64,000 nucleotides of DNA from Herbiconiux moechotypicola (GTDB lineage Bacteria > Actinomycetota > Actinomycetes > Actinomycetales > Microbacteriaceae): NCBI RefSeq assembly GCF_024979255.1, contig NZ_JANLCN010000016.1, positions 1-64,000 of the forward strand. The letters run 5' to 3'. Position numbers and translations under genes: made by a program. This document shows, in pieces, positions 6,007-47,902 of the stretch. Numbering within the stretch: the first letter of the stretch is position 1; the number at the start of each line of letters is the position of its first letter. The notes beneath the pieces were generated by a model. It made no database searches. It saw nothing but the letters and a program-made list of their open reading frames with translations, and was not told where the DNA came from.

Positions 6007-6050
6007 GGAGACCACCTCGGAGGAGTGCTCCCGGCCGAGTGCCGGGGTTG

Positions 6051-8001
<1,951 letters not shown>

Positions 8002-8005
<4 letters not shown>

Positions 8006-10217: not shown

Positions 10218-10237
10218 GGTTCTCCAAAGAGGTAAGA

Positions 10238-10283: not shown

Positions 10284-10339
10284 AATTACTGCACCGCGTG
10301 CAGATTCGCAGTCACTGCACGATCAGCGCTCTCGCGCGA

Positions 10340-12132: not shown

Positions 12133-12133
12133 C

Positions 12134-12153
12134 TAGTTTACATAGCCAAACTA
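12134..12153 (-). promoter_or_regulatory. MarR-type dyad at the start of the marR-MFS operon
   Basis: TAGTTT (12134-12139) and AAACTA (12148-12153) form a perfect dyad with an 8-nt spacer. It abuts the translation start and includes a -10-like TATGTA on the minus strand, so a bound dimer would block transcription. Its sequence differs from the double operator at 10238-10283, so the two MarR systems should not cross-talk. Confidence 0.7.
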
Positions 12154-12161
12154 TCGATCGG

Positions 12162-13484: not shown

Positions 13485-13494
13485 GCCCTCCAGG

Positions 13495-14196: not shown

Positions 14197-14257
14197 GCCC
14201 CGAGTCTAGGTGGCGGGAGCGCGACGGGATGCGGCGGGAGCGCGGCGCGAGGCGGCC

Positions 14258-17893: not shown

Positions 17894-17952
17894 ACCCACG
17901 AGTTTACCGGCCACCACCGACACCGAGGCCGCGCGGTGTCGGATGCGCGGGG

Positions 17953-18540: not shown

Positions 18541-18605
18541 GCGATCAGACCTCGGTTCCCTGGCTCGTGCTGCGGATGCGGGTGGTGTGTGTGCGGAGGG
18601 GTCGC

Positions 18606-19205: not shown

Positions 19206-19385
19206 GGTGTTCTCTCTTTTCGTCTGGTGTTCAACTCGACCGCGTGAGCGGGAGGAAAGACCTGCGAAGACTCACCCACCGCGTCGATAACGGATGCTCG
19301 TGCATCCCTCGCCGAAGTACAGTCAGGCAGTCTAGCGCATCCGCTCCACTACGCTGGAGGGGTTCGACCTACGAGGAGCTTGTTC

Positions 19386-33012: not shown

Positions 33013-35909
33013 GATTCATCGTCAACGGCGAGCAGCTCGAGGCCGATCCCGCACCCGGCCAGTGCCTGCGCACCTTCGTGCGCGACCAGGGTCACTTCGA
33101 GGTGAAGAAAGGATGCGACGCGGGCGACTGCGGCGCCTGCTCGGTGATCGTCGACGGCACGCCGGTGCATTCCTGCGTCTACCCCGCCTACCGCGCCGAG
33201 AACCGCATCGTCACGACGGTGGCGGGTCTGGGCGAGCCCGACGACCTCAGCCCCCTGCAGCAGAGCTTCGTCGACAACCTCGGCTTCCAGTGCGGCTTCT
33301 GCACCGCGGGGATGGTGGTGACGGCCACCACGCTGAAGCCCGAGCAGCTCGGCGACCTGCCCCGGCTCATGAAGGGCAACCTGTGCCGGTGCACAGGGTA
33401 CCGGGCGGTCGAGGCGTCGATCCGGCAGGGCGTGTGCGCGTCGGCGCGCGCGGCGGAGGGCGGCGGTCACGACGACGGGCCCGGCTCCGGATGCGCGGGG
33501 ATCTGCGGGTCGGATTCCCACGGAGCGGTGCGGGCCACAGGCAAGTCCCGCGCGAGCGAGTCGGCGACGACCGCAGAGGCGGCGAGTGCCGAGGGCGTGG
33601 CGAGCGCCGAACGCGTGGCGCTGCTCACCGAGTCGCCCGCGAGCGAGCTTGCGACCGTCACGGTCGGCACCTCGGTGCGGCCGCCGGCCGCCCGGCGCAT
33701 CGTGACGGGCCGGGAGGAGTACACGCTCGACACAGCGGTGCCGGGCGTGCTGCACCTCAAGCTGCTGCAGAGCCCCCACGCGCACGCACGGGTGCTCTCG
33801 ATGGACACCAGCGCCGCCGAAGCCCTGCCGGGGGTGCACGCCGTGCTCACGGCGGCCGACTCGCCCGCCACCCTCTACTCCACGGCGCGGCACCAGTGGC
33901 GCACCGACGACCCCGACGACACGACGCTCTTCGACACGGTGGTGCGCTATCGCGGACAGCGGGTCGCCGCCGTGGTGGCCGACAGCATCGGCATCGCCGA
34001 GGCCGCGTGCCGGCTCATCGAGGTGGAGTACGAGGTGCTCCCCGCCGTGTTCGACCCGGAGGCCGCCAGGCAGCCGGGCGCCCCGTTGCTGCACGCAGAC
34101 AAGTCGCCCACCGCGTCGCGCATCGCAGAGCCCGAGCGCAACGTCATCGCCTCGGTGCACAGCGAGATCGGTGACGTCGAGGCCGCCCTCGCCGAGGCCG
34201 ATGTGACGGTCGCGGGCACCTGGCAGACCCATCGTGTGTCGCACGCCGCCCTCGAGACCCACGGCTCGGTGGGCTGGCTCGACGAGCAGGGCCGGCTCGT
34301 GCTGCGCACCAGTTCGCAGGTGCCGTTCCTCGTGCGCGACGAACTCGCCCACATCTTCGCGCTCGACCCCGCGGCGGTGCGCGTCTACACCGCACGGGTC
34401 GGCGGCGGCTTCGGGGGAAAGCAGGAGATCCTCACCGAAGACGTCGTCACCGCGGCGGTGCTCGCCACCGGCCGCCCGGTGCAGTTCGAGTTCACCCGCA
34501 GCGACGAGTTCAGCATCGCGCCGTGCCGTCACCCCATGCGGGTGAAGGTGGCACTCGGAGCCACCCGTGACGGTCACCTCACCGCGATCGAGCTCGATGT
34601 GCTGAGCGACACGGGGGCCTACGGAAACCACGGGCCGGGCGTCATGTTCCACAGCGTCGGCGAGACGGTGAGCCTCTACAACGCCGCGAACAAGAAGATC
34701 GACGCCGAGGTGGTGTACACCAACAACATCCCCTCGGGAGCGTTCCGCGGCTACGGTCTCGGGCAGGTGCTCTTCGGCGTGGAGTCGGCCCTCGACGAGC
34801 TCGCCCGCGAGCTCGGCATCGACCCCTTCGAGCTGCGCCGCATCAACGCGGTGAGGCCCGGCGATCCCCTCGTGGCCTCGCACGTCGAGGGCGACGACCT
34901 GGTGTTCGGCAGCTACGGACTCGACCAGTGCCTCGACCTCGTCGAGTCCGCCCTGGCCCGCGACGGCGCATCACTGCCCGTGCCGCACGGCACGGAGTGG
35001 TCGGTGGGAACGGGCATTGCGGCGGCCATGATCGCCACCATGCCGCCGCGCGGCCACTTCTCCACGGTCTCGATGACGCTGGAGTCCGACGGCGGCTACC
35101 TCGCCTCCGTCGGCACCTCCGAGTTCGGCAACGGCACCACCACCGTCCACACGCAGATCGCGTCGAGTGTTCTCGGCACGGCGGCGGAGAGCATCCGCAT
35201 CCGGCAGTCCGACACGGATGCGTCGGGTCACGACACCGGGGCCTTCGGCTCGGCGGGGAGCGTGGTCGCGGGCAAGGCGCTCTACTCGGCGGCGCTGTCG
35301 CTCAAAGCCGCCATCCTGCGCACGGCCTCCGAGATCGCGGGCGAGTGGAGCGAAGGCCACCTCGGCCCCGACGGGGTGACCATCGGCGAGCGCCTCGTGC
35401 CGCTGGCCGACATCGCCGCCGCCGCGGGCGGCACGCTGACCGCCTCCGGCAGCGAAGACGGCGCGAAGCGCTCCCTCGCCTTCAACGTGCAGGGGTTCCG
35501 GGTGGCCGTCAACGCGACCACCGGCGAGGTGCGCATCCTGCACTCGGTGCACGCGGCCGATCCCGGCGTCATCCTCAATCCCGAGCAGCTGCGCGGCCAG
35601 ATCGAGGGCGGGGTGGCGCAGGCGATCGGTTCGACACTCTACGAGGAGATGATCCTCGACGAGGGCCTGGTGAAGACCCAGGTGTTCCGCAGCTACCACT
35701 TGCCGCAGTTCGCCGACGTTCCCGTCACCGAGGTGCTGTTCGCCGAGACGGAGGACAGCGTCGGCCCCTTCGGTGCCAAGTCGATGAGCGAGGCGCCCTA
35801 CAACCCGGTCGCCCCCGCCCTCGCCAACGCGGTGCGCGACGCCGTGGGCGCCCGCCCGCACGTGCTGCCCATCTCCCGCGACCGCGTCTGGAGGTCGATC
35901 AACGCCTGA
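33009..35909 (+). CDS. Fused [2Fe-2S]-molybdopterin subunit of a xanthine dehydrogenase-family hydroxylase
   Basis: A 966-residue catalytic subunit. Residues 1-145 form the small-subunit part: a plant-type ferredoxin cluster (CDAGDCGAC) and the helical cluster domain (QCGFCTAGM, LCRCTGY). A linker of about 75 residues rich in Ala, Ser and Gly follows. The rest is the molybdopterin domain: GGGFGGKQE, GAFRGYG, QSDTD, and the catalytic Glu in KSMSEAPYNP. Small and large subunits are separate genes in most bacterial CoxSML-type enzymes; here they are fused in that order. With the FAD subunit and XdhC nearby, oxidation of a purine or related heterocycle is likely, though the substrate is not fixed by sequence. 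Confidence 0.92.
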   Translation: MRFIVNGEQLEADPAPGQCLRTFVRDQGHFEVKKGCDAGDCGACSVIVDGTPVHSCVYPAYRAENRIVTTVAGLGEPDDLSPLQQSFVDNLGFQCGFCTAGMVVTATTLKPEQLGDLPRLMKGNLCRCTGYRAVEASIRQGVCASARAAEGGGHDDGPGSGCAGICGSDSHGAVRATGKSRASESATTAEAASAEGVASAERVALLTESPASELATVTVGTSVRPPAARRIVTGREEYTLDTAVPGVLHLKLLQSPHAHARVLSMDTSAAEALPGVHAVLTAADSPATLYSTARHQWRTDDPDDTTLFDTVVRYRGQRVAAVVADSIGIAEAACRLIEVEYEVLPAVFDPEAARQPGAPLLHADKSPTASRIAEPERNVIASVHSEIGDVEAALAEADVTVAGTWQTHRVSHAALETHGSVGWLDEQGRLVLRTSSQVPFLVRDELAHIFALDPAAVRVYTARVGGGFGGKQEILTEDVVTAAVLATGRPVQFEFTRSDEFSIAPCRHPMRVKVALGATRDGHLTAIELDVLSDTGAYGNHGPGVMFHSVGETVSLYNAANKKIDAEVVYTNNIPSGAFRGYGLGQVLFGVESALDELARELGIDPFELRRINAVRPGDPLVASHVEGDDLVFGSYGLDQCLDLVESALARDGASLPVPHGTEWSVGTGIAAAMIATMPPRGHFSTVSMTLESDGGYLASVGTSEFGNGTTTVHTQIASSVLGTAAESIRIRQSDTDASGHDTGAFGSAGSVVAGKALYSAALSLKAAILRTASEIAGEWSEGHLGPDGVTIGERLVPLADIAAAAGGTLTASGSEDGAKRSLAFNVQGFRVAVNATTGEVRILHSVHAADPGVILNPEQLRGQIEGGVAQAIGSTLYEEMILDEGLVKTQVFRSYHLPQFADVPVTEVLFAETEDSVGPFGAKSMSEAPYNPVAPALANAVRDAVGARPHVLPISRDRVWRSINA

Positions 35910-36003: not shown

Positions 36004-37596
36004 TCACGCGCCGGCGAGCCACGCCGTCTCGCGCAGCAGCTCGGCGTCGGCCGCGGCGGTCGCCGACTCGGCCGCGCGCTCCGACTCGGCGTCGTCGAAG
36101 GGGAGGCGCGGCCACTTCTCGGCGTCGGGATGCACCTCGAGCGCCCGCACCCCGAGCTCGGCACCCGCAGCGAGCAGCGCTCGGCGCACCGCCGAAGGGT
36201 CGATGTCCCGCACCTCCGAGCCCCCGGCCAGAGCAGTCAGCGCCGCCGCCGTCCCCGCCGCCTCACCCGTCGCCAGGCAGATCGGGATGACACGAGCCGA
36301 CCCCACCGCCTCGTGCGTGGCCGACAAGCACTTGCCCGCCATGAGGAGCCCGCTCATCCCCCGCGCCACCAAGGCCCCCAGCGGAATGCCGTAGGCCCGC
36401 ACATTGGTGGAGCTCACCCACGTTCCGCTCGGTCGGTGGATGTCGATGTGATAGCCGCCCATCGCCACGTCGTCGGGGTGACGCCTCCCCTCCACCAGGT
36501 CATCGGCCGTCAGCACCGCATCGCCCACGATGCGCCGGCTCTCACGCACCCCCAGCATCGGAGCGATCTCCACCAGGTAGGCGTCCGCGCATCCGGGCAC
36601 GTAGTCGCGGAAGAACCGCACGATCGGCGGGATCTGCTCGTACACCCGCCCGTAGGCCTCGCTCATCGACCCGACATCGACCGGGTCGAGCCCGAGCACC
36701 CGCGTCATGACCACACTGATCTCGTGCGGCGTCTCGGGCGTGGAGAGCTTCACGCCCACGATGCGGCTCTGCGGGATGTCGAGGTCACCAGCCGCCCGAG
36801 CGCGCTCCACGAGCCCCGCGAATCCACCGAGCACCCACACGTCGACCTCGTCGAGCCGCTCAGCCAGTCGGGCGAACAGCTCGGGGTACGGAACGAACCA
36901 CTCGCGATACGCGAACGATGGATCCTGGCAGGCCTTCCGGAACGCGTCGTCGTCGATGCCGCCGAGCCGGAAGACGAGGGTGGGCGACTGCACGAGACCG
37001 TCACCCGTTCGGCCCTTCTCCCAGTCCGCCCCGGCGCTGACCGCCACGTCGCCGTCGCCCGAACAGTCCACGACGACCCGGCCGTCGAACCTCGTCCTGC
37101 CCGACTTGCTCTCGACCTCGACCCCCGTGACGCGGGTGCATACGCCCCCGCGTGCACCCTCGCCCGCGTCCTCCACCCGCTCCACGATCGCCCGCACGAA
37201 CAGCGCGTGCAGTAGCACCGTAACACCCGCTTCGCGCAGCAGCCGGAGCGCGAGCACCTTCCAGTAGTGCGGATGCACGGCCACGAGCGATCCGCACTTC
37301 GGGTCGAGCGTGATCGGCGAGGCATGACCTTCGGCCGCCAGGGTGTCGGCGAACTCTCCAGCCAGCCCTCGCACCACCCGCTGGAAGTCCTGATCGTGGA
37401 ACCCCAGCCACGGCAACGTGGCCGAGATCCCGCCCACGAATCCCGATCGTTCGAGCAGGAGGGTGCGCGCTCCCTGCCGCCCCGCGGCGATCGCGGCGGC
37501 CACACCGGCCGCGCCGCCGCCCACGACGATCACGTCCCACTCCCCCGAACTCTGCACGCCCATCCCGTTCACTCCGCCCGTCCCCGTCCCATCCAT
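36004..37596 (-). CDS. FAD-dependent oxidoreductase (FAD_oxidored family), first of a pair
   Basis: A 530-residue flavoprotein with the N-terminal dinucleotide fold VIVVGGGAAGVAAAIAAGRQ (about residues 22-41), followed by LLLERSGFVGG and GRVVVDCSGDGDVA, typical of the FAD_oxidored group (PF12831). The C-terminal region has SGLLMAGKCLSATHEA and a second flavin contact. Substrates for this group are mostly unknown. It is the last gene of a seven-gene run started by a GntR gene and including an ABC importer, an aldolase and a second enzyme of the same family. The two paralogues may act in sequence or on related sugar acids. ATG after GGGAGG. Confidence 0.82.
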   Translation of the reverse strand: MDGTGTGGVNGMGVQSSGEWDVIVVGGGAAGVAAAIAAGRQGARTLLLERSGFVGGISATLPWLGFHDQDFQRVVRGLAGEFADTLAAEGHASPITLDPKCGSLVAVHPHYWKVLALRLLREAGVTVLLHALFVRAIVERVEDAGEGARGGVCTRVTGVEVESKSGRTRFDGRVVVDCSGDGDVAVSAGADWEKGRTGDGLVQSPTLVFRLGGIDDDAFRKACQDPSFAYREWFVPYPELFARLAERLDEVDVWVLGGFAGLVERARAAGDLDIPQSRIVGVKLSTPETPHEISVVMTRVLGLDPVDVGSMSEAYGRVYEQIPPIVRFFRDYVPGCADAYLVEIAPMLGVRESRRIVGDAVLTADDLVEGRRHPDDVAMGGYHIDIHRPSGTWVSSTNVRAYGIPLGALVARGMSGLLMAGKCLSATHEAVGSARVIPICLATGEAAGTAAALTALAGGSEVRDIDPSAVRRALLAAGAELGVRALEVHPDAEKWPRLPFDDAESERAAESATAAADAELLRETAWLAGA

Positions 37597-37623
37597 CTCG
37601 TGTCCTCCCTGGGGCCGCCGGCC

Positions 37624-39264
37624 TCAGTACGCCGCCACCGTCGGCCAGTGCAGCTCGACCCCGCGGGCGGTCAGCGCCCGCTGGAAGTCCTCGAGCAACC
37701 CGTCATCGGCCCGCACCGCCGCGGGTACGTGCCCGCCGGACACGCAGAACGCCGCGAGCGCTCCGGCCGACTCGCCGATGTTCCACTCCACGGGGTGCAC
37801 CCGGTAGCAGCCGTTCGTGATGTGCGTGGTGCCGATGTTCTTGGCGGCGGCGATCAGGTTGTCGGCCTCGTCGCCGATCAGCGCGCCGAGCGGAATCTCG
37901 AACGGCCACGCCGCGTCGTAGCGCCGCTCGCCGCCGTTCGTCGAGGGGTGCAGGTCGATCTTGTAGCTGCCCACGCCCACGCTGTCACGGTATCGGGTCG
38001 CTCCGCGATCGCCGCGCACCGACCGCGCGATGTCGTTCTGGGTGATCGTGACCGCGGCGCGCATCCGTCGCCCCTCCCGGATGTACGGCGCCATCGCGAG
38101 TCCGTCGTCGGTGCCCATCACGTCGCCGCGGGGGCGCAAACCGGGGAATCCCGTGCCGCCGTCGGCACGAGGCGCCTCGGTCTGCAGCCAGTAGAGGAAG
38201 CTGAGGCTCTGCTGCCGGGCCCCTTCGAGACTCGCAGCCGCAACGTCGGCGGAGACGTCGACGATCGAACCGTCGACGTAGTCGTTGGCCGGGCAGTTGA
38301 TGAGGGTGATGTCGCTCGGCGGCGCCGGATCGAAGTTGCCGCGTGCCACGAGCCGCCGGAACCGCCAGAGGTCGGCGATGGGGTCGACCGTGCGCGGCCC
38401 GAACCTGCCGGCGAGGCTCGACGGCACGACGACGGCCGCGTCTCCCGCCGGGTCGGGGTTCGGGTCGAGCACCCCGCCCGACCCCATCCACCCGACGGCG
38501 GGGTACGCACGCACCGGCGCACCCGGAGAGGTCCAGTAGTCGTACTGCTCAGGCCGGTCGATGGTGTGGTCCTCGCCGGCCAGATGGTCCATCGCGAAGC
38601 AGACCGTGAAACCCTGCATCATCTGCGGGTCGCCGGTCTCCGGGGCATCGGGCTCGCCGGTCTCGTGGTGCGACTCGGTGCCCGTCACGTACGGCACCCC
38701 GGCGAGCGGCAGCAGGTCACCGGTCTCGGTCGCGTCGAGAACCACGGATGCGGTGACGCGGCGGGCAGACCCGTCCCTGTCACGCAGTTCCACCGCGGCG
38801 AGGCGGCCCCCGTCGCGTTCCACCGCCGTGGGCGTGCAGCCGGTCAGCACCACGAGGCGCCCGTCGCGGCGGGCGGGCTCGAGCATCGCCTCGAGCACGG
38901 CCAGCGCGACCCGGGGTTCGTGACAGATGGCGCTGACGGTTCCCGAGCCGGGGTTGAGGTACAGCGATCGCCGCGCACGCCCGGACAGCGGGTACCAGCG
39001 CCGATAGTGGTCGCGCACGGCCGCGCGGAACCGGCGGTAGGCCGCCGTGGCCCCGAACTGCTCGATCCACGGGTGCTCGTCGGGCGGCACGGCCTGCGAG
39101 GTCAGCTGTCCACCGATCCACTCGGTCGGCTCCGTGAGCACGACGCTCGCCCCCGCCTCGGCCGCGGCGAGCGCTGCGGCGACTCCCCCCGTGCCGCCGC
39201 CTACGACGAGCACGTCGGCATGCAACTCGACCGCGGCCCGCTCACCGCTCGCGTACCCGCTCAC
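37624..39264 (-). CDS. FAD-dependent oxidoreductase (FAD_oxidored family), second of a pair
   Basis: A 546-residue flavoprotein, distant paralogue of its downstream neighbour. It has VLVVGGGTGGVAAALAAAEA near residue 18, then EPTEWIGGQLTSQAVPPDEH, a run seen in a subgroup found near polysaccharide and sugar-acid genes. VVLDATETGDLLPLAGVPYV and NLIAAAKNIGTTHITNGCYR are further conserved stretches. No signal peptide is present, so it acts in the cytosol. The GTG start overlaps the aldolase stop (GTGA). Role in the locus is inferred only from neighbours: oxidation of the imported substrate or of the aldolase product. Confidence 0.82.
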   Translation of the reverse strand: MSGYASGERAAVELHADVLVVGGGTGGVAAALAAAEAGASVVLTEPTEWIGGQLTSQAVPPDEHPWIEQFGATAAYRRFRAAVRDHYRRWYPLSGRARRSLYLNPGSGTVSAICHEPRVALAVLEAMLEPARRDGRLVVLTGCTPTAVERDGGRLAAVELRDRDGSARRVTASVVLDATETGDLLPLAGVPYVTGTESHHETGEPDAPETGDPQMMQGFTVCFAMDHLAGEDHTIDRPEQYDYWTSPGAPVRAYPAVGWMGSGGVLDPNPDPAGDAAVVVPSSLAGRFGPRTVDPIADLWRFRRLVARGNFDPAPPSDITLINCPANDYVDGSIVDVSADVAAASLEGARQQSLSFLYWLQTEAPRADGGTGFPGLRPRGDVMGTDDGLAMAPYIREGRRMRAAVTITQNDIARSVRGDRGATRYRDSVGVGSYKIDLHPSTNGGERRYDAAWPFEIPLGALIGDEADNLIAAAKNIGTTHITNGCYRVHPVEWNIGESAGALAAFCVSGGHVPAAVRADDGLLEDFQRALTARGVELHWPTVAAY

Positions 39265-40169
39265 GCGGCCGCCCCGTCGAGAATCCCGGGCACCGCGGCC
39301 AGACGCTCCCGCAGCACCCGCGCCTGCCCGGGCTCGAGCGCGGGCAGCGCCTCGCCGAGAGCAGGTCCGATGACGCCGAGCTCGGCGAGCGCCCCCTTGA
39401 GCGACGACAGCCAGAACCCGGCACCGTAGATGCCGCAGGCGACGTCGAGTTCGGCCTGCAGCCGCGCGGCCTGCTCCGTGTCGTGGGCGAGTCCCGCCGC
39501 GACCAGGCGGGAGGCGAGCCCGGGAACGAGGTTCGCGATGCCGGGAACGGCGCCGTCGGCTCCCTCGGCGAGACTCCGGGCGATCAGCGCCTCGGCCCCC
39601 TGGAAGACGCCCAGCCCGTGCTCCCGAGCCGTGTCGGCGAGCGCCGAGAACACCTCCCAATCGGCCGACGACTCCTTGAGGGCGATGACCGCGTCGATCC
39701 CCGCGATCTCGGCCAGCGCATCCGGAGTGATCGGCGAGTGCGTGAGGTGCGGGATGTTGTATGCCACGAGCGGTGACGAGGTGCGCGCCGCCACCCCCTC
39801 GAAGTGGCGCACCACGGCGCCGTCGGTCTCGGTGTCGAAGTACATGGGAGCCATCACCACGAGCGCGTCGACGCCCGCCTCTTCGTAGGCGGCCGCCGCG
39901 GCGACGGCGCGCTCGGTGCTGGTCTCCCCCACCCCCGCGAGAACGGGCACGCGGCCGTCGACCGCCTCCACGAAGCCCGCGACGACCGCGCGCGCGACCC
40001 CCGGCTCCAGCGTCGGGCCCTCTCCGCAGGAGCCGAGCACGAACACGCCGGAGGCGCCGCCGTCGAGCAATCGCTCCGTGAGACGGCCGATGCCCTCCCG
40101 ATCGGCCGTTCGGCGGGCGGTGAGCGGTGAGACGGCGGGCGGGATCATGCCGGAGAGCTGAAGGGGCAC
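39261..40169 (-). CDS. DHDPS/N-acetylneuraminate lyase-family aldolase
   Basis: A 302-residue class I aldolase or hydro-lyase of the DapA superfamily (TIM barrel). The Schiff-base Lys lies in VIALKESSADW and the catalytic Tyr in VAYNIPHLTHSP; the pyruvate-carboxylate loop is LGSCGEGPTL in place of the usual GTTGE. YNIP and the context of sugar ABC genes favour a sialic-acid, 2-keto-3-deoxy acid or similar substrate over lysine biosynthesis. The GTG at 40169 has AAAGGA 8 nt ahead and fits family length; an ATG at 40211 overlapping the permease stop is the alternative. Confidence 0.85.
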   Translation of the reverse strand: MPLQLSGMIPPAVSPLTARRTADREGIGRLTERLLDGGASGVFVLGSCGEGPTLEPGVARAVVAGFVEAVDGRVPVLAGVGETSTERAVAAAAAYEEAGVDALVVMAPMYFDTETDGAVVRHFEGVAARTSSPLVAYNIPHLTHSPITPDALAEIAGIDAVIALKESSADWEVFSALADTAREHGLGVFQGAEALIARSLAEGADGAVPGIANLVPGLASRLVAAGLAHDTEQAARLQAELDVACGIYGAGFWLSSLKGALAELGVIGPALGEALPALEPGQARVLRERLAAVPGILDGAAA

Positions 40170-40207
40170 GAGCGAGGTCCTTTCGGTAGGGAGGGGTGCG
40201 GTCGAGT

Positions 40208-41053
40208 TCATGACTTGACCGCACCGGCGGTGAGACCGCCGATGAAGTGGCGCTGCATCACGAGCAGACACACGATGAGGGGAACGGTGGAGATGACGGT
40301 GCCGGCCGTGATGGCACCCCAGGGCGACTCCTCGACGATCGAGAAGTTGAGCTGGGAGTGCAGGAAGGCGAGCCCGATGGGCATGGTGAACTGATCGGAG
40401 CTCGTGAGCATGACGAGGGGCAGCAGATAGGCGTTCCAGGCGTTAAGGAAGAGCAGCAGCGCCGCTGCGCCGAGACCCGGCCGCACGAGCGGGACCGCAA
40501 CCGTCCAGAACAGCCGCAGCTCCCCCGCGCCGTCGAGGCGGGCGGCGTCGAACAGCTCTTCGGGCAGCTGTGCGAAGTACTGCCGCAGCAGGAACAGCAC
40601 CAGCGCGTTGGCGGCCAGCGGGAGGATGACCGCCGCCCAGGTGTTGAGCAGCCCGAACTGCCGCATGATGGTGAACTGCGGCAGCACCAGCGCGTACTCC
40701 GGGATGGCGAGACTCGCCAGCACGATGCCGAACAGGATCGTGCGACCGCGGAAACGGTACCGGGCGAAGCCGAACGCGGCGAGCGACGCGACCGTCACCC
40801 CGAGCGCGGTGGTGCACAGCGCGATACCGATCGTGTTGAGCATCCACCCGGGGATCGGGCCGGCCAGGGCCGCGCGGTAGTTGTCGAGGGTGAGCTGCGA
40901 GGGGATGAGCGACACCTCGCCGAGGAGCGTGCTCGGCTTCAGCGACGAGATCACCAGCCAGTACAGCGGGAAGGCGATCACGACGACGAGCAGCACCACG
41001 ACGACGGCGCGCACGACGCGCGACGAGAGGCGTTCAGCGATCACGGTCGTCAC
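40208..41053 (-). CDS. Carbohydrate ABC transporter permease (MalG type)
   Basis: A 281-residue inner-membrane permease with six predicted helices. The EAA loop, where the ATPase docks, is seen at EELFDAARLDGAGELRLFW followed by the usual hydrophobic segment. It belongs to the CUT1 sugar-importer family and pairs with the MalF-type permease encoded just upstream (20-nt overlap). No ATPase gene is present in the locus; actinobacterial CUT1 importers often share a single MsiK-type ATPase encoded elsewhere. Confidence 0.9.
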   Translation of the reverse strand: MTTVIAERLSSRVVRAVVVVLLVVVIAFPLYWLVISSLKPSTLLGEVSLIPSQLTLDNYRAALAGPIPGWMLNTIGIALCTTALGVTVASLAAFGFARYRFRGRTILFGIVLASLAIPEYALVLPQFTIMRQFGLLNTWAAVILPLAANALVLFLLRQYFAQLPEELFDAARLDGAGELRLFWTVAVPLVRPGLGAAALLLFLNAWNAYLLPLVMLTSSDQFTMPIGLAFLHSQLNFSIVEESPWGAITAGTVISTVPLIVCLLVMQRHFIGGLTAGAVKS

Positions 41054-42005
41054 TCCTCAGCAGGCGGTTGGCGAGCAGGGTGCTCACGATGATGGCGACG
41101 GCGAGCACGGCCGAGGCGGCGGCGCCCTTGCCCAGGTCGAACTGACCGAAGGAGGCCTGGAAGATGTACATGACCGCCGTGAGCGTCGACCGTGCCGGAC
41201 CGCCGTCGGTGAGCACGTCGACCTCGGCGAACAGCTCCCACGCGGCGATGGAGGCGGCCACGAGCACGAACAGGGTGACCGGTTTCAGCAGCGGGAAGGT
41301 GATGTGGCGGAAGCGCTGCCAGGCGTTGGCGCCGTCGAGCGCGGCCGCCTCGTAGTACTCGTCGGGGATGGACTGCAGCCCGGCGAACAGGATGACCGCG
41401 TAGTAGCCCAGCACCCGCCAGATGCGCAGCAGGATGATCGACCACGGCGCCAGGCCGGCGTCACTGAGGAACGGGATCGGATCGAGCCCGAACTGCGCGA
41501 GCACTCCGCTCACGAAGCCCACCCGCTCGTTGAGGATGAGGTCGAACACCAGGGCCACCGCGATGAGCGACATGGTGATGGGGGCGAACACGAGCACCTG
41601 CACGATGTTCGCCGAGCGCTTGCGCAGCTGCTTGAGCAGCACCGCCACGAACAGCGCCAGGGGCATGAGGGCGAGGAGGAAGCCCGCGAGCATGTAGACG
41701 GTGTTGCCCATCGCCTTGCCGAACAGCGGGTCGGTGAGCACCGTGGCGAAGTTGTCGCCGCCCACGAAGACAGGTGCCTGGCCGAGCGGCCAGGTGACGA
41801 AGGCCATGCCGAGGGCCAGCAGCACACTGCCCGCCCCGAACGGCAGGAAGACGACGAAGAACGGGGCGATGAACAGGTACGGCGCCGACCGGGGGTGGCG
41901 CCGCAGCGCTCGCCGACGCCGGCCGGGCGCGGCAGGGGCGGGCCGGTTCGGCCCCGCCCCCGTCGCGCCGGGCTCCACGTCGAGCCGGGACTGCAGCGCG
42001 GTCAC
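41034..42005 (-). CDS. Carbohydrate ABC transporter permease (MalF type)
   Basis: A 323-residue CUT1 permease with six helices and an arginine-rich cytosolic N-terminus of about 40 residues. The EAA loop is EYYEAAALDGANAWQRFR. GTG start overlaps the solute-binding protein stop (GTGA), coupling the three transport genes. With its MalG-type partner and the lipoprotein at 42002-43261 it would import an oligosaccharide or sugar derivative. Confidence 0.9.
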   Translation of the reverse strand: MTALQSRLDVEPGATGAGPNRPAPAAPGRRRRALRRHPRSAPYLFIAPFFVVFLPFGAGSVLLALGMAFVTWPLGQAPVFVGGDNFATVLTDPLFGKAMGNTVYMLAGFLLALMPLALFVAVLLKQLRKRSANIVQVLVFAPITMSLIAVALVFDLILNERVGFVSGVLAQFGLDPIPFLSDAGLAPWSIILLRIWRVLGYYAVILFAGLQSIPDEYYEAAALDGANAWQRFRHITFPLLKPVTLFVLVAASIAAWELFAEVDVLTDGGPARSTLTAVMYIFQASFGQFDLGKGAAASAVLAVAIIVSTLLANRLLRSDDRDR

Positions 42006-43261
42006 AGCGATCCGAGCTCCGCGACGATCTGGTCGATCGCCTCGCGTGGAGTGAGGGTTCCGGCGTAGGCCGCGTCGACCGCCGCGGTCACCGCCCCCTC
42101 CGTCTCGGGCCAGTTGAAGAAGTAGAACGGCGGGTAGGGCACGCTCGACAGGTCGGAGATGACCGTCTGTCCGCCGAAGTAGGGGTCTTCGAAGTCGAGG
42201 TCGATCTCCTCGGCGGCCGGCTCGTAGGAGACCAGGCCGAGGGTGTCGACCGTGGCCTGCAGACCCTCCGGGGTGAGCCACCAGAGGATGAAGTCCTTGA
42301 CCCCCTGGGGGTTGTCCGACGCGGCCAGGCCCGCGAAGAGGCTGCCGCCGAACACGCCGGTGGCCTGCTCGTCGCCGGCCTCCCAGGTGGGCCAGGTGAT
42401 GAGCCGCCACTGCCCCGACTGCTCGGGCACGTTCTTCTGCAGGTTCGTGCTGCCCACTCCGTAGTTCATGGTCCAGCCCACCACCTGCTCGCTGCGGATG
42501 GAGTCCCAGAAGGTCGGCTCGGTCCACACCCCGTCGTAGACGAGACCGCGCTCGTGCAGGTCGACCAGGAACTCGAGCGTGTCGGCGGCGAGGTCCTCGT
42601 CGACGGCCAGCTCGCCGTTCTCGTCCCACCAGGTGCCGCCCCTCGAGTTGAAGAAGGCGTTGAACATGTTCGCGCCGTTCGCGCCCGGGGGCTGGATGAA
42701 CATGTACTGCGTTCCCCCTGAGGCCTCCTTGAGCTGCTCGGCGACCGCGACGATGTCGTCCCAGGTGGGGTTCTCGGGCACGGCGAGCCCGTGCTTGGCC
42801 AGAGCGGCCTCGTTCACCCAGAGGCCCATGTTGCCCGACCCCATCGTGAACGTGTTGATCTGATCGCCCGTGCCGAGCAGCGCACCGTCGGGGAAGTCGT
42901 CCGCCATCGGCCCGAGCTCGGCGGTGAGGTCGAGGAACTGCCCGGTCGAGAGCAGGCCGCCGCTCTCGCGCAGCGGCAACTGCACCACGTCGGGCAGACC
43001 CTCGCCACCCTGCAGGGCGACCACCAGGCGCTGGGTCATGTCCCCGATGGGAATCTCCACCACCTCCACGTCGTAGTCCGGGTACGCCGCCTGGAACTGG
43101 TCCTCGATCACCGCCGGCATCGAGCTCGAGAACAGCCACACCTCGAGGCTGTTGTCGGTCGGGGTCTCCGCGGGTGTGCCTGGCGAGGCGCATCCGGCGA
43201 GGGTGAGAGCGGATGCGGCGACCAGGGCCGCGGTCGCTGCGAGTCGTCTGCGGGTGTTCAT
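42002..43261 (-). CDS. Extracellular solute-binding lipoprotein (CUT1 sugar importer)
   Basis: A 419-residue substrate-binding protein. The signal peptide ends in the lipobox LAGC (Cys24), so the mature protein is lipid-anchored outside the membrane. The rest is a cluster B/D type sugar-binding fold (SBP_bac_1), with many Trp residues in the C-terminal half that could stack on sugar rings. It is the first transport gene after the GntR gene in the locus and decides substrate choice; the ligand cannot be told from sequence. Confidence 0.9.
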   Translation of the reverse strand: MNTRRRLAATAALVAASALTLAGCASPGTPAETPTDNSLEVWLFSSSMPAVIEDQFQAAYPDYDVEVVEIPIGDMTQRLVVALQGGEGLPDVVQLPLRESGGLLSTGQFLDLTAELGPMADDFPDGALLGTGDQINTFTMGSGNMGLWVNEAALAKHGLAVPENPTWDDIVAVAEQLKEASGGTQYMFIQPPGANGANMFNAFFNSRGGTWWDENGELAVDEDLAADTLEFLVDLHERGLVYDGVWTEPTFWDSIRSEQVVGWTMNYGVGSTNLQKNVPEQSGQWRLITWPTWEAGDEQATGVFGGSLFAGLAASDNPQGVKDFILWWLTPEGLQATVDTLGLVSYEPAAEEIDLDFEDPYFGGQTVISDLSSVPYPPFYFFNWPETEGAVTAAVDAAYAGTLTPREAIDQIVAELGSL

Positions 43262-43313
43262 GAGCTCCTCCTTGAGCTGCTCGGGTGAAGGGGGCGCGGC
43301 GCCGGGCCGCGGG

Positions 43314-43976
43314 TCAGGCCTCGTGGTCGAGGCGCACGCGGATGTCGTCGAAGTGCCGGCTCATCGCCTGCACCACGTCGCTCTCGTCGGCGAGGGCGTC
43401 GACGATGTTGAGGTGCAGGCGGGCGAGCTCGGCGCCCGACGGCGCCGAGGTGACCGTCTGCTCCTGCATGCGGTGGAAGATCTCCCAGAACAGCTCGATC
43501 ATCTGGTCGACGAGCGGGTTGTCGAGGGGTTCGTAGAGCCTCAGGTGGAACTGCCGGTCGAGCTCGGCGATGCGTTCCGGCGTGGCGGTCTCCATCGACA
43601 CGGCGAGCTCGCGCAACGCCTCGAGATCGCGGCGCCGGATCCACTCCGATGCGCGGCCGATGAGTCCTTCCTCGAGGGCGGCCCGCACCTCGAGCAGGTT
43701 GCGCAGGTCTCGCGACTGCAGCTCGATGGCGTAGGGCAGGTTCTCGAGGATGGGCGAGAACGAGAACGGCTCAACGTAGGTGCCGCCTCCGTGCCGCGTC
43801 TTCAGCACGCCCACCGTCTCGAGGCCCTTGATGGCCTCGCGCAACGAGAGCCGGCTGATGCCGAAGCTCGCGGCCAGATCGGCCTCGGCGGGGAGCTGGT
43901 CGCCCGCGGCGAGGCCCTTCTCGGAGATGTAGCTGCGCAGCCGCAGCTGCGCCTCGCGGTACTTGGGTGTCGGCAT
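43314..43976 (-). CDS. GntR/FadR family transcriptional regulator
   Basis: A 220-residue regulator with an N-terminal winged helix (residues 5-75; LPAEADLAASFGISRLSLRE is the recognition part) and a C-terminal helical FCD ligand domain whose metal-type residues lie in DRQFHLRLYE and SRHFDDIR. It heads the minus-strand run of importer, aldolase and flavoenzymes and is divergent from two BNR-repeat genes. It probably represses both sides through the dyad at 44021-44051 and is released by a sugar acid from the pathway. That effector is inference. Confidence 0.88.
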   Translation of the reverse strand: MPTPKYREAQLRLRSYISEKGLAAGDQLPAEADLAASFGISRLSLREAIKGLETVGVLKTRHGGGTYVEPFSFSPILENLPYAIELQSRDLRNLLEVRAALEEGLIGRASEWIRRRDLEALRELAVSMETATPERIAELDRQFHLRLYEPLDNPLVDQMIELFWEIFHRMQEQTVTSAPSGAELARLHLNIVDALADESDVVQAMSRHFDDIRVRLDHEA

Positions 43977-44020
43977 CGTCGTCCTCGAAACTCGGTGTGC
44001 CGCCCACCCTACGATCAAGA

Positions 44021-44051
44021 GATCAGATGAGTCAAGAGTATTGATCTGATC
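44021..44051. promoter_or_regulatory. GntR-type operator in the divergent promoter
   Basis: GATCAGAT (44021-44028) and ATCTGATC (44044-44051) are perfect inverted copies with 15 bp between. The right arm lies within the smaller palindrome TGATCTGATCA-like. It sits between the GntR gene and the first BNR gene (starts 43976 and 44077), in the only AT-rich patch of the region, and is the best operator candidate for both transcripts. Confidence 0.65.
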
Positions 44052-44076
44052 ACTTCCCCACTCATATGATCCCTGC

Positions 44077-45201
44077 GTGGACCCGCACTGTCGCCGTCTT
44101 CGGCCCGAACCTCTCGCCATCGCCCTCGCCGATGCCCGCGAGCCTCGCCACAGCGAGCCCAGCCTCATCGAGATCGACGCGGGCGGCACACCCGAGCTGC
44201 TCCTGGCCTGGTCGGCGTTCTCGGCGAGCTCCCGCGCTCGAGGAGCGACCGGCGCCGCCGCGCGGGAGTGGGAGTTCTCGCGCGACAACAACGCCGCCGA
44301 GATCCGGCTCCTCCGCTCGCGCGACGGCGGCCTCTCCTGGTCGGAGCCCGAGCTGCTGGTCGCCGACTCGGGCGGCATCAACACGATGCAGCCGGCGTTC
44401 ATCGGCCTGGCCGACGGTCGTCTCGGGTTGAGCTGGTCGGTCCGGGACTCCCCGAGCCGGGCGCGCCGACTCTTCGCCACCAGCGAAGACGGAGGGCGGA
44501 CCTGGTCGGAGCCCGTCGACATGACGGGTGACCCCGGCTACGTGACGGCCGCCCACCACCGCCTCGTGCGACTGCGGACGGGCCGGCTGCTGCAGCCCTG
44601 CCACCGTCTTCTCGGAGACGAGCTCCAGACGGTCGTGGCCCTCTCTGACGACGACGGCCGGAGCTGGGTCGCGTCCGACCCGATCGCCCTGCACGGCGGC
44701 GGTGGCGGCGCGGGCCACCAGCACGGGCTCTGGGAGGCCTCGGTGGTCGAGCTCGACGACGGACACCTACTGCTGGCCGGGCGCACGGCCACGGGGCGGG
44801 TGCATGCGTCACGATCCCACGACGCCGGCGAGCACTGGTCCGCACCGGAGCCGCTCGACGTCGTCGCCCCCTCGGCCCCGTGCATCCTCGTGCACCGCGG
44901 CGGAGGCCGTGTGGCACTCATTCACAACCCGGGCTTCGATGCCCACGCCGTGCTGGCCGGTGCCCGAACCCGCCTCACCACGTCGATGAGCGCCGACGGC
45001 GGCCGCACCTGGTCGCCCGGCCGCACGCTCTTCGACGATACCCATCGCTGGTTCCACTACCCGGCGATGCTCCCCCGCGCCGACGGCGGGCTCCTCGCGC
45101 TCAGCGTCACCGATCCCCGCACACGCCTGTGGAACCTGGTGCTGACCCGCGTGGCCCTCGATCCGGCACCGAACCATCTCGTCGAAGGAGACGAATCATG
45201 A
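44077..45201 (+). CDS. Cytosolic BNR-repeat (sialidase-fold) protein
   Basis: A 374-residue six-bladed propeller of the sialidase superfamily (BNR_2 type). Five Asp-box-like repeats are visible: SRDGGLSW, SEDGGRTW, SDDDGRSW, SHDAGEHW and SADGGRTW. The canonical (F/Y)RIP arginine motif of GH33 is absent; the start reads EPRHSEPSLIE. No signal peptide is present, so it should act inside the cell on an imported substrate. The GTG start is the best in-frame choice but has no clear ribosome site. It is cotranscribed with the exported homologue that follows (ATGA overlap). Confidence 0.82.
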   Translation: MDPHCRRLRPEPLAIALADAREPRHSEPSLIEIDAGGTPELLLAWSAFSASSRARGATGAAAREWEFSRDNNAAEIRLLRSRDGGLSWSEPELLVADSGGINTMQPAFIGLADGRLGLSWSVRDSPSRARRLFATSEDGGRTWSEPVDMTGDPGYVTAAHHRLVRLRTGRLLQPCHRLLGDELQTVVALSDDDGRSWVASDPIALHGGGGGAGHQHGLWEASVVELDDGHLLLAGRTATGRVHASRSHDAGEHWSAPEPLDVVAPSAPCILVHRGGGRVALIHNPGFDAHAVLAGARTRLTTSMSADGGRTWSPGRTLFDDTHRWFHYPAMLPRADGGLLALSVTDPRTRLWNLVLTRVALDPAPNHLVEGDES

Positions 45202-46298
45202 CCGAACACCAGCCACCCACCGCCCTCGCCCCGGCCGGCCTCACCCGACGCGGCTTCATCGCGCTCGGTTCGGGGCTCGGCGCCGCAGCGCTCACCGGGC
45301 TCTCGTTCGCGAACGGCCCCCGCGCATCCGCCGCACCCCTGTTCGACGACGTCGGCGTGGTGTCGAACGATGTGCACCACCTGCCCACGATCATCCACGT
45401 CGAAGGATCGACGCTCGTGATCGCGGCCCAGCGCCGCCGCGCCGTCGCGAGCGGCGTGCACCCCGACAAGGGCGCCGCCGACATCGTGACCTTCCGGAGC
45501 ACGGACGGCGGGGCGACCTGGGGCCCGATGCGCTACGTCTACCAGACCTCGGGCACCACCGGCGACTGCGGGTACGCGCCGGTGGTGACGATGATCGACG
45601 GGGAGCTGTCGATCCTGCACACCGTCGGACCGCAGGACTGGGCGGTGACCGATCTCGAGCCCCACCAGCGCTTCAGCCCCGACGGCGGCGACACCTGGGG
45701 AGCCGATTCGACGCCCGTCATCACCTCGGCCCACGACAACGGGCTGCCCACCAACGGTGGCAAGGGCTTCCAGTTCCCCACGGGGCGGGTGGTGGCACCC
45801 GGGCGCAACTGCCTGCTCTACAGCGACGACGGCGGTGCGAGCTGGACGGCCACGCCCGAGATCCTCGGCAACGTCGAGACCAAGACCGTGCCGTACTTCC
45901 TCTCGGGGGCCATCTCGCGCACGGCTCTCGCTCCGTGGCGCACGAGCTCCACCACCTCGGGCCGCATCGGCAAGGCGCGCCTGGCCGACTTCTACCAGCA
46001 GGCCGCCACGGTGAACCACACCTTCGGGGCCGACTTCAACATCGGGTTCTCGCGCTATGACGGCACCCGCCTGCTGCAGACCGGATCGCGGTCGAACCAG
46101 CTCTACGCGCGGCTCAGCGCGAACGAGGGCGTGAGCTGGACGAACGAGAAGAACATCACCGGATCGGCGCCCTCCGCGCGCTACTCCGACGTCGCGGTGA
46201 CCGACGACGGCACCATCGTCGTGGTGTTCATGCAGAACGGATCGCCCGGTGCGGCCCTGCGGGTGGTGCGGTTCAACCTGGAGTGGCTGACGAGCTGA
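45198..46298 (+). CDS. Tat-exported sialidase-fold protein (GH33-like)
   Basis: A 366-residue secreted protein. A twin-arginine signal (LTRRGFIALG, Arg17-Arg18, hydrophobic stretch, then RASA cleavage) implies export in folded form. Asp boxes STDGGATW, SPDGGDTW, SDDGGASW and SANEGVSW mark the propeller. The motif that is (F/Y)RIP in sialidases reads HHLPT, losing the first Arg of the triad that holds the sialic acid carboxylate; the following DKGAADIVTFRS block fits GH33. So it is related to sialidases but may cut a different glycoside. It would generate the substrate for the divergent importer. Its end overlaps the convergent argP-like gene by 26 bp. Confidence 0.82.
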   Translation: MTEHQPPTALAPAGLTRRGFIALGSGLGAAALTGLSFANGPRASAAPLFDDVGVVSNDVHHLPTIIHVEGSTLVIAAQRRRAVASGVHPDKGAADIVTFRSTDGGATWGPMRYVYQTSGTTGDCGYAPVVTMIDGELSILHTVGPQDWAVTDLEPHQRFSPDGGDTWGADSTPVITSAHDNGLPTNGGKGFQFPTGRVVAPGRNCLLYSDDGGASWTATPEILGNVETKTVPYFLSGAISRTALAPWRTSSTTSGRIGKARLADFYQQAATVNHTFGADFNIGFSRYDGTRLLQTGSRSNQLYARLSANEGVSWTNEKNITGSAPSARYSDVAVTDDGTIVVVFMQNGSPGAALRVVRFNLEWLTS

Positions 46299-47217
46299 CC
46301 GGCGAGCGGAGGGCGGCCGGCGCGCGCAGGGCAGCGGATGCGGCGGCCGCCACCGCGGCGGCGGTGCGTGCCAGCGGGCGCGTGTCGAGCTGCCACTGCT
46401 GCCAGTGCAGCGGCACGTCGATCGCGCCGCCGGGGTCGAGGTCGACGAGCTCGTCGTGCTGACGGAGCTGCAACTCGGGCACCAGCCCCCACCCGAAGCC
46501 GAGCCTGATCGCGTCGACGAAGTCGGCGGAGGAGGGCACGTGGTGGTTCGGCGGGAGTGCCGGGTCGACTCCCCGCGACTCGAGGTAGCGGTGCTGGAGC
46601 GTGTCGGCGCGGTCGAACACCACGACGGGAGCGACCGCGAGCGCGGCGGCCGAAGGCACATCCGCCCCGAACCTCCGCCGCACGAACTCCCCCGACGCCA
46701 TCGGGCGGTAGCGCATCGCCCCGAGCAGCAGGGAGGAGCACCCCTGCACGGCGGTGGGCTCCGTCGTGATGGCCGCCATCACCGACCCCTGGCGCAGGAG
46801 CTCGGCGGTGCGGCTCTCGTCGGCGCGCACCAGCTCGAACGCGATCTCGCCCGCGAGCGGCCGGAGTGCGGCGAGCAGCCAGGTGGCGAGCGAATCGGCG
46901 TTGACCGCGAGCGGAAGCGGCTCCAGCCGGGGTGCGGAGCGATCACCCGTGGCACCCGCGCCGGCTCCGAGGGCGACCATGGCCTCGCGCGCGAGTGCAT
47001 CGGCCTGACGCGCCAGGCGGAGCAGCACCTCGCCCGACTCGGTCGCCTCCACGGGTCTCGTGCGGCGCACGAGAACACGGCCGGTCTGCAGCTCCAGCGC
47101 CTTGATGCGCTGGCTCACCGCCGACGGGGTGATGGCGAGCGACCGTGCCGCGGCCTCGAGCGTTCCGGTCTCGACGGCAGCGCGGAGGGCGGCGAGTCGG
47201 TGCGGGTCGAATTCCAT
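46273..47217 (-). CDS. argP: LysR family regulator, ArgP/LysG type
   Basis: A 314-residue LysR-type regulator with the N-terminal helix-turn-helix (LAALRAAVETGTLEAAARSL, then TPSAVSQRIKALE). The effector domain follows. It is divergent from a LysE exporter gene, the classic lysG-lysE arrangement, where the regulator activates export in response to basic amino acids. The C-terminus is Ala-rich. The 70-bp gap between the two genes holds a nested dyad. Confidence 0.9.
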   Translation of the reverse strand: MEFDPHRLAALRAAVETGTLEAAARSLAITPSAVSQRIKALELQTGRVLVRRTRPVEATESGEVLLRLARQADALAREAMVALGAGAGATGDRSAPRLEPLPLAVNADSLATWLLAALRPLAGEIAFELVRADESRTAELLRQGSVMAAITTEPTAVQGCSSLLLGAMRYRPMASGEFVRRRFGADVPSAAALAVAPVVVFDRADTLQHRYLESRGVDPALPPNHHVPSSADFVDAIRLGFGWGLVPELQLRQHDELVDLDPGGAIDVPLHWQQWQLDTRPLARTAAAVAAAASAALRAPAALRSPVSSSATPG

Positions 47218-47287: not shown

Positions 47288-47902
47288 GTGACCCTCGACC
47301 CTCTGGCAGCCCTCGCGGGCCTCGGCTTCGGCCTCTCCCTCATCGTCGCCATCGGCGCGCAGAACGCCTTCGTGCTGCGGCAGGGTCTGCTTCGCCGGCA
47401 CGTGCTGGCGGTCGTCGTGGTGTGTGCAGCGTCGGATGCGGTGCTCATCCTGCTCGGCATCGCCGGCGCGGGCGTGGTGTTCGCCGCCATCCCCTGGCTC
47501 ACCACCGCGGTGCGCATCGCAGGAGCCGCGTTCCTGCTCGGCTATGCCGTGCTCGCCGCCCGGAGGGCAGTGCGCCCGCGCGCGCTCGAGGCCGGCGACC
47601 CGCAGGCCTCCCCCGGGCTCGCCGCCACCGTGCTGGCGTGCCTGGCCCTGACCTGGCTCAACCCCCACGTCTACCTCGACACCGTCGTGCTGCTCGGCTC
47701 CGTGGCCAACACCCACGGCGACTCCCGCTGGCTGTTCGGCGCGGGCGCGGCCGTGGGCAGCGTGCTGTGGTTCACCGCGCTCGGCTACGGCGCGCGCCTG
47801 CTCCAACCCGTGTTCGCCCGTCCGGCGGCCTGGCGCATCCTCGACGCCGTGATCGCCGTGGTGATGGCCGGCATAGCGGTCTCGCTGCTGCTCGGCCTCT
47901 GA
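47288..47902 (+). CDS. lysE: LysE/ArgO family amino-acid exporter
   Basis: A 204-residue membrane protein with six predicted helices of the LysE family, exporting lysine and/or arginine. The family start GFGLSLIVAIGAQNAFVLRQGL and the Asp of the second segment (CAASDAVLILLGIAG) are clear, as is LTWLNPHVYLDTVVLLG. GTG follows a weak AGGG. Divergent from its likely activator. Confidence 0.93.
   Translation: MTLDPLAALAGLGFGLSLIVAIGAQNAFVLRQGLLRRHVLAVVVVCAASDAVLILLGIAGAGVVFAAIPWLTTAVRIAGAAFLLGYAVLAARRAVRPRALEAGDPQASPGLAATVLACLALTWLNPHVYLDTVVLLGSVANTHGDSRWLFGAGAAVGSVLWFTALGYGARLLQPVFARPAAWRILDAVIAVVMAGIAVSLLLGL

Follow-up and report, generated by a model that had tools for sequence, protein, structure and literature searches.

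A conserved gene cluster of Herbiconiux moechotypicola that joins two FAD_oxidored enzymes, a DHDPS/NAL-type aldolase and sialidase-like proteins: a candidate operon for a sialic-acid-like sugar

In the canonical sialic acid (nan) clusters of Actinobacteria, an importer, a regulator, a lyase of the dihydrodipicolinate synthase (DHDPS) superfamily and a sialidase-like gene share one locus. A survey of these clusters assigned SBP_bac_5 importers to N-acetylneuraminic acid (Neu5Ac) and SBP_bac_1 importers to 2,7-anhydro-Neu5Ac, and it reported that none of 13 Jiangellales species was nan-positive (PMC8754123). The 2,7-anhydro-Neu5Ac pathway of Ruminococcus gnavus comprises an intramolecular trans-sialidase (IT-sialidase), the SAT2 importer and NanOx, and the RgNanOx reaction passes through an oxidation, an elimination and a re-reduction, for which the enzyme uses bound NAD (PMC7535918). 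The N-acetylneuraminate lyase (NAL) of Corynebacterium glutamicum is described as having DHDPS activity as well (PMC5380162). Here, we analysed a nine-gene cluster at positions 36004-46298 of a 64,000-nucleotide stretch of Herbiconiux moechotypicola DNA (contig NZ_JANLCN010000016.1, assembly GCF_024979255.1; the whole stretch is called the window). We read this cluster as a GntR-controlled, self-contained catabolic operon that may serve a sialic-acid-like sugar (a 2-ulosonic acid or a close relative) other than ordinary Neu5Ac, and we hold this reading at about even chances.

Compared with the canonical nan clusters, the Herbiconiux cluster has the same kinds of parts; however, it contains neither NanK nor NanE, the genome has no NanE, and two flavoenzymes of family PF12831 are present. 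As in the R. gnavus pathway, a sialidase-like gene and an ATP-binding cassette (ABC) importer accompany an oxidoreductase that lies beside a lyase, but the R. gnavus oxidoreductase is a NAD enzyme of the Gfo/Idh/MocA type, whereas the enzymes here depend on FAD and are clustered with neither NanK nor NanE (PMC7535918). Based on the list of open reading frames (ORFs) and on Pfam searches, neighbouring genes overlap or almost touch. On the minus strand, the order is GntR regulator, solute-binding protein (SBP), permease 1, permease 2, aldolase, FAD2 and FAD1; BNR1 and BNR2 diverge from these genes on the plus strand.

36004-37596, minus strand: FAD1, FAD-dependent oxidoreductase (PF12831; Pfam 356 bits; 66-74% identity to the close loci L030-L033)
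37624-39264, minus strand: FAD2, second FAD-dependent oxidoreductase (PF12831; Pfam 336 bits; core clade with SH-like support of 100)
39261-40211, minus strand: class I pyruvate aldolase of the DHDPS/NAL superfamily (DHDPS PF00701, 153 bits; GSCGE, YNIP and the Lys of ALKESS; ATG start at 40211)
40208-41053, minus strand: permease 2 of a CUT1 sugar importer, inner membrane (BPD_transp_1; top NCBIfam model UgpE, below its cut-off)
41050-42005, minus strand: permease 1 of the CUT1 sugar importer, inner membrane (BPD_transp_1; top NCBIfam model UgpA, below its cut-off)
42002-43261, minus strand: solute-binding lipoprotein (SBP_bac_1; Pfam 106 bits)
43314-43976, minus strand: GntR/FCD regulator (Pfam GntR and FCD; top NCBIfam models LldR and NanR, far below cut-off)
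44022-44050, no strand: putative operator, inverted pair ATCAGAT n15 ATCTGAT between the divergent operons
44077-45201, plus strand: BNR1, sialidase-like protein without a leader, accessory (BNR_2, 129 bits)
45198-46298, plus strand: BNR2, exported sialidase-like protein with a Tat-type leader by eye and no RIP arginine, the motif reading HHLP (BNR_2, 31.9 bits)

The original prediction, which was made from the letters of the window, had described nine back-to-back genes around one GntR operator, and Pfam, the gene calls and the operator search agree with that description. FAD1 and FAD2 score far above the PF12831 gathering cut-off of 27 bits, and both span profile positions 1-416 of 416. BNR2 lies barely above the BNR_2 cut-off of 31.4 bits. 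The SBP_bac_1 protein and the two BPD_transp_1 permeases together identify a CUT1 importer; Pfam detected no ABC ATPase among the nine genes, which were the part of the genome searched for one. The same nine proteins had no Pfam match to the Gfo/Idh Rossmann family, to which NanOx belongs, and this search likewise covered the cluster. Among the matches listed, none of the nine reached a curated NCBIfam cut-off. The matches of the binding protein in the Protein Data Bank (PDB) are sugar-type binders at ≤43 bits, and the protein was dropped as a clue to the substrate.

The pattern ATCAGATN{10,40}TCWGAT matches a single place in the 4.28 Mb genome, at 44022-44050, on both strands, and a reversed control pattern gave 0 and 0 matches. 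Half-sites of the TCWGAT type, read by eye, precede the cluster genes in relatives too. Because the operator-like pair was found once in a genome-wide search with the paired pattern (as distinct from looser or single sites), the regulon may comprise this locus alone.

NanE had no match in the window genome, the assembly of which is 99.89% complete; 8 of 14 control genomes were positive. Since this search was genome-wide, the assembly encodes no NanE-dependent Neu5Ac route. Among the seven cluster-carrying genomes searched, NanE occurs somewhere in four and is without a match in three (the window genome, G435 and G636, the last being 88% complete). The window genome has 11 ROK matches, none of them among the nine cluster genes. 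The absence of the canonical nan partners had also been predicted, and it stands for NanE and ROK in the cluster and for NanE in the genome. By the definition of a canonical cluster used in the survey (nanA, nanK and nanE within 10 ORFs; PMC8754123), the nine genes do not form one. BNR1 and BNR2 are the only BNR_2 matches of the window genome, which holds three DHDPS-family genes.

To ask how far the cluster is shared, we scanned named genomes for FAD2 and kept the best 80 of 269 loci. Four of these, with FAD2 at 67-73% identity, carry the cluster: those of Jiangella endophytica, Phytoactinopolyspora alkaliphila, Jiangella asiatica and a Microbacterium metagenome-assembled genome (MAG). Further copies were found in L127 and L128, of the Jiangella group (assigned to Jiangellaceae by family label), and in L129 and L130, which represent one copy split over two contigs in the window's genus. 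Each of the five Jiangellaceae loci has the series GntR-SBP-permease-permease-aldolase-FAD2-FAD1 with BNR2 diverging from it, the same core order as in the window. The MAG, the contig of which is cut, retains the series permease-aldolase-FAD2-FAD1, but there BNR2 and BNR1 come after FAD1 and GntR has the opposite orientation. The conserved core comprises GntR, the binding protein, two permeases, the aldolase, FAD2, FAD1 and BNR2, the last being found in 8 of 8 cluster copies seen. Among these copies, BNR1 lies beside the cluster only in three Microbacteriaceae (the window, the MAG and the split copy), and the fetched stretches of the five Jiangellaceae loci contain no BNR1-type gene. BNR1 is accessory to the cluster, and the second, cytosolic cut that was originally proposed is not supported as a general step, because a BNR1-type gene is missing from those five stretches.

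Among 394 genomes of the class, six contain a BNR2 match at E < 1e-100 (the window's own and five from Jiangellaceae) and eight do so at E ≤ 1e-10. Of the 99 relatives searched for BNR1, 3 gave a match; within the window's genus, the figure was 2 of 16 genomes. Core FAD2 is present in 5 of 22 Jiangellaceae genomes, 19 of which have some FAD2 homolog, and identity within the family drops from 73-74% (core) to 58% without intermediates. Core FAD2 proteins form one clade, with SH-like support of 100. A chance grouping of genes is ruled out by that single clade, by the identity gap and by the gene order, which is retained in five genomes of a family that belongs to another order. The expectation of a conserved, self-contained gene set is thus borne out in relatives, with the core in unchanged order in five Jiangellaceae and rearranged or split in two Microbacteriaceae assemblies; the genes co-occur in relatives, against the scattering that would have refuted the prediction. 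All eight shared genes that we compared are nearer to those of J. endophytica than to those of other Microbacteriaceae copies. Base composition gave no sign of a recent foreign import (GC 0.709 in the cluster, 0.712 in the rest). A third BNR protein, which carries a Golvesin_C domain, adjoins the cluster genes in two of the Microbacteriaceae assemblies (L033:8117-10141, L130:2927-5035).

We searched the PDB with FAD2 as a single sequence and as a profile, and with FAD1 as a profile (best 60 of 136 matches). Among the matches listed, none ran along the whole of either protein; the N-terminal FAD-binding part alone was covered, over at most ~175 profile positions. PF12831 was matched, over all or part of the profile, in all 14 control genomes. 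Literature searches for PF12831, FAD_oxidored and DUF4127, alone or with sialic acid, returned nothing beyond a Brucella flavoproteome study. We know of no reaction for the FAD2 family.

The neighbourhoods of FAD2 were compared for 121 distinct copies within a radius of 8 kb, 114 of them outside the core. An aldolase gene lies within this radius in 24 of the 114 non-core copies and is adjacent in 23 of those. A BNR gene occurs within 8 kb of 18 of the 24 aldolase-linked copies versus 1 of the 90 aldolase-free non-core copies (2 of 90 using a hidden Markov model built from unlinked GH33 genes only); the copies counted include loci picked for a nearby BNR gene (L188, L189, L190 and L192), L212, which was already known to have a BNR neighbour, and some taken as guessed orthologs of L212 (L214 and L215 among them). 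In loci taken by FAD2 rank alone, a BNR gene is present in 8 of 13 aldolase-linked copies versus 1 of 85 others; this set consists of 76 scan copies, 10 distinct best non-core matches from 15 Jiangellaceae genomes, and 12 Microbacteriaceae loci. The named-genome scan alone gave 3 of 6 aldolase-linked versus 1 of 70 other FAD2 copies. The predicted association of FAD_oxidored, aldolase and BNR genes therefore recurs outside the core, based on the rank-only loci. Gene order differs between the two groups: the aldolase gene precedes FAD2 in 7 of 7 core copies, and the 23 non-core copies with an adjacent aldolase all have it behind FAD2. Aldolase-linked non-core loci span Jiangellaceae, Streptomyces, Actinomadura, Microtetraspora and Dactylosporangium, and most of those inspected at the level of gene calls have a LacI-type regulator and Dpp-type importers, often with an MGH1-like glycosidase (assigned mostly by cluster or by eye).

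NanE is nearby in nine non-core FAD2 copies. One locus of the Jiangella group, L190 (G417:C1:2378001-2398000, 4582-19999), combines FAD2 and aldolase with an SBP_bac_5 importer, two BNR genes, NanE, a BadF-type kinase and an amidohydrolase, so FAD2 can be part of an apparently complete set of sialic-acid-type genes. With NanE, the kinase and the amidohydrolase beside it in L190, FAD2 may be a member of such a pathway and not a sign against it. A first clustering of neighbourhoods had suggested that NanE and aldolase are mutually exclusive beside FAD2, and L190 overturned this. As the kinase of L190 is not a ROK protein, the locus may be a sialic acid cluster that ROK-based surveys overlook.

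Other FAD2 loci have different company. NanE, ROK, DUF4127 and CUT1-type permeases share FAD2 loci, without a clustered aldolase, in L036, L042, L053, L058, L061, L063, L069, L071 and L083, which come from genomes of Streptomyces, Haloactinopolyspora and Bacillaceae type. In L034, L035, L046, L075 and L085, FAD2 lies near a hydantoinase/oxoprolinase-like gene (judged by its start) and a likely symporter, with a second PF12831-type enzyme in three of them, which suggests another use of the FAD2 family. The family is expanded in Jiangella, with 15 matches in G435; BNR_2 matches reach 35 in G417. The window genome itself has a second operon, L157 (G000:C4:22001-42000, 7348-13684), with a regulator of GntR type by eye, an aldolase, CUT1 permeases and a FAD_oxidored gene; it is not orthologous to the window cluster.

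Almost all PDB matches of BNR1 and BNR2 are sialidases, and both proteins were compared with sialidases of glycoside hydrolase family 33 (GH33). Features shared with GH33 enzymes are Asp boxes, the catalytic Asp, Glu and Tyr, and two Arg of the triad; unlike those enzymes, BNR2 and nearly all FAD2/aldolase-linked proteins have lost the first triad Arg, that of the RIP motif. When BNR1 is aligned by profile with GH33 chains, its Glu220, Arg236, Arg297 and Tyr328 fall on catalytic positions of the family; these residues are invariant in a separate alignment of three proteins. BNR1 Arg24 (PRHSE) falls near the RIP place in the alignment of these three, but other residues occupy that place once GH33 proteins are aligned. 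In the eight core BNR2 proteins, the RIP column holds Gln in five, Ala in two, His in one and Arg in none; Glu and Tyr are kept in all eight, the acid/base column holds Asp in six and Glu in two, and the second and third Arg are each present in seven. The altered RIP motif that had been noticed in BNR2 is thus confirmed in the GH33 alignment columns, and related loci share it.

Outside the core, the RIP Arg is replaced by His in 20 of 20 linked BNR ORFs from 18 FAD2/aldolase loci, and all 20 keep the Asp, the Glu, the second Arg, the third Arg (within one column) and the Tyr. These ORFs include L062, where the aldolase is ~8 kb away; L087, which is cut off and has His, was excluded, as were repeat copies of one and the same locus. 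The L190 pair keeps the RIP Arg and provides the only two exceptions among linked proteins. As controls, we chose 22 ORFs from 20 regions in G379, G417 and G457 that do not lie within 8 kb of FAD2, several being within 55 kb of the core. The RIP Arg is kept in 19 of these; the orthologous pair L222 and L232 carries His instead, and the alignment of L235 is poor. Overall, the position is not Arg in 28 of 30 linked versus 3 of 22 unlinked proteins. The second BNR gene in L030 and a related one in L160 (FRVH, with the Arg) were assigned to neither group, and a third relative, L225, is a control. In the BNR tree, the non-core His proteins group with the L190 pair (support 81) and include the two His controls; core BNR2 stands apart on a long branch (100) whose position the tree does not resolve, and BNR1 falls in a third group (100). 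Based on this grouping, the RIP Arg was lost in about two lineages and not in 28 independent events.

A clustering of BNR genes around the core has weak support. BNR genes within 25 kb of the core number 3 of 18 in G379 and 2 of 16 in G417, values that random positions reach in 1.1% and 2.4% of cases. Near the core are RIP-motif BNR genes, GH2 and GH36 in G379, and a SASA esterase in G417. In the window, the flanks read by eye contain xanthine dehydrogenase-like genes (32235-35909) on one side and a guanine-deaminase-type amidohydrolase (47960-49351) on the other; an ArgP/LysG regulator (46273-47217) and a gene that is LysE-like by eye (47288-47902) lie between the cluster and the amidohydrolase gene.

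The aldolase aligns as a class I enzyme, with Lys177 as the Schiff base residue, Tyr149, and GxxGE in the form GSCGE (numbering of the 314-residue translation). Its nearest PDB entries are 4xky and, second, 5c54 (118 bits), which we take to be the C. glutamicum N-acetylneuraminate lyase. The two share the Schiff-base Lys and the YNIP and GxxGE motifs; however, the match reaches 118 bits only, and the window protein has GSCGE instead of GSSGE.

The reading of a catabolic operon for a sialic-acid-like sugar draws on the observed gene set and order, the single operator-like pair, the missing NanE match, the linkage of FAD2, aldolase and BNR genes, and the loss of the RIP Arg. As for the substrate class, the reactions and their order, we propose the following. 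Exported BNR2 would release a sugar or short glycoside, which the CUT1 importer would take up, and cytosolic BNR1, where present, would remove a leftover aglycone. FAD2, encoded beside the aldolase, might oxidise or open the sugar into a form that a lyase can cleave, and the DHDPS/NAL-type lyase would split this product into pyruvate and an aldehyde sugar. FAD1 could perform a further oxidation, which would explain why the NanK/NanE pair is dispensable. The lost RIP Arg suggests that the sugar differs at its carboxylate. More specifically, and as a tentative proposal that we consider possible rather than probable, FAD2, the aldolase and a sialidase-fold enzyme with His, Gln or Ala for the first triad Arg may form an undescribed module for a sialic-acid-like sugar altered at C1 (e.g., reduced, amidated or lactonised). 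This module would exist in at least two gene orders and in several actinobacterial families, with FAD2 restoring or creating the keto acid for the aldolase. In the literature searched (titles and abstract openings, with subscription papers mostly outside it), we found no description of this gene set.

Several points weigh against the operon serving such a sugar. Fisher values for the linkage are descriptive and overstate independence, since the linked loci fall into clades of common descent. The 90 of 114 non-core FAD2 copies without an aldolase within 8 kb imply that the family has other uses; 6 of the 24 copies with a linked aldolase lack a BNR gene in the same radius, among them the sole aldolase-linked copy in the 12 Microbacteriaceae loci. 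BNR genes are frequent in Jiangellaceae genomes, with 8 to 35 matches each, and a second BNR gene ~5 kb downstream of core FAD2 in L030 retains the Arg. The aldolase lies under the DapA and NanA cut-offs of NCBIfam (dapA 134.9 of 206 bits, PRK04147 84.6 of 281, nanA 68.9 of 382) and has GxxGE as GSCGE. Loss of the first triad Arg would itself speak against a plain C1 carboxylate, which an ulosonic acid has, and the proposed substrate class is read from the genes.

An alternative that we regard as rather unlikely is a route for uronic or other sugar acids. In such a route, the BNR proteins would use their sialidase fold to cleave glycans of uronic acids, as lyases or as hydrolases; after flavin oxidation, the aldolase would take a 2-keto-3-deoxy acid of the 2-keto-3-deoxygluconate (KDG) type as its substrate. 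Among beta-propeller lyases, some rely on His and Tyr, and in the linked proteins the first triad Arg is replaced by His, Gln or Ala while the Tyr is kept. A homolog of GH106-type alpha-L-rhamnosidases borders the core at L030:236-3934, L032:172-3936 and L128:13154-16909 (Pfam was scanned in L030 and L032), and pectate lyase-, FAH- and sulfatase-like genes, identified by eye, lie beside other FAD2 copies. However, all 20 linked non-core proteins retain the GH33 Asp, Glu and Tyr together with the second and third Arg, which fits retaining glycosidase chemistry, and the PDB matches of BNR1 and BNR2, almost all of them sialidases, also speak against this route.

We consider it unlikely that FAD2 is a flavin counterpart of NanOx, a redox-neutral enzyme that would open an anhydro-sialic acid, or one blocked in some other way, so that the free acid is formed before the lyase acts. 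The RgNanOx chemistry (PMC7535918) provides a model for such a step, and the cluster has an SBP_bac_1 importer, the type assigned to 2,7-anhydro-Neu5Ac (PMC8754123); FAD2 also co-occurs with the aldolase and, in other loci, with NanE and ROK genes. On the other hand, BNR1 and BNR2 would have to be intramolecular trans-sialidases, a putative function, and the FAD2 family has no reaction known to be assigned.

A somewhat more doubtful alternative is that the substrate is deaminated neuraminic acid (Kdn), or another nonulosonic acid without an N-acetyl group, from actinobacterial walls. The aldolase would then yield pyruvate and mannose, the latter being a product of Kdn cleavage, and NanE would be unneeded, in keeping with its lack of a match in the window genome. 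Teichulosonic acid containing Kdn has been reported from Streptomyces walls (PMC11481543) and from Promicromonospora (PMC6801904), and Kdn incorporation is higher in nontypeable Haemophilus that lacks NanA, which suggests that NanA takes part in breaking Kdn down (PMC7845648). Kdn, however, has a C1 carboxylate, which leaves the lost Arg unexplained, and the two flavoenzymes would be without a role. Finally, an ordinary canonical nan cluster with NanE and NanK elsewhere is highly improbable despite the NanE genes in four of the seven cluster genomes, as the operator-like pair is single and NanE is missing from two other carriers (one of them 88% complete) and from the window genome, for which a distant NanE is rejected.

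If the module for a C1-altered sugar exists as proposed, it would place a flavin enzyme at the entry of a sialic-type pathway. The link between a FAD enzyme, an aldolase and a sialidase-fold protein lacking the Arg offers a concrete substrate class to test, and it may explain how actinobacteria that are rich in sialidase-like genes but have no canonical nan clusters use such sugars.

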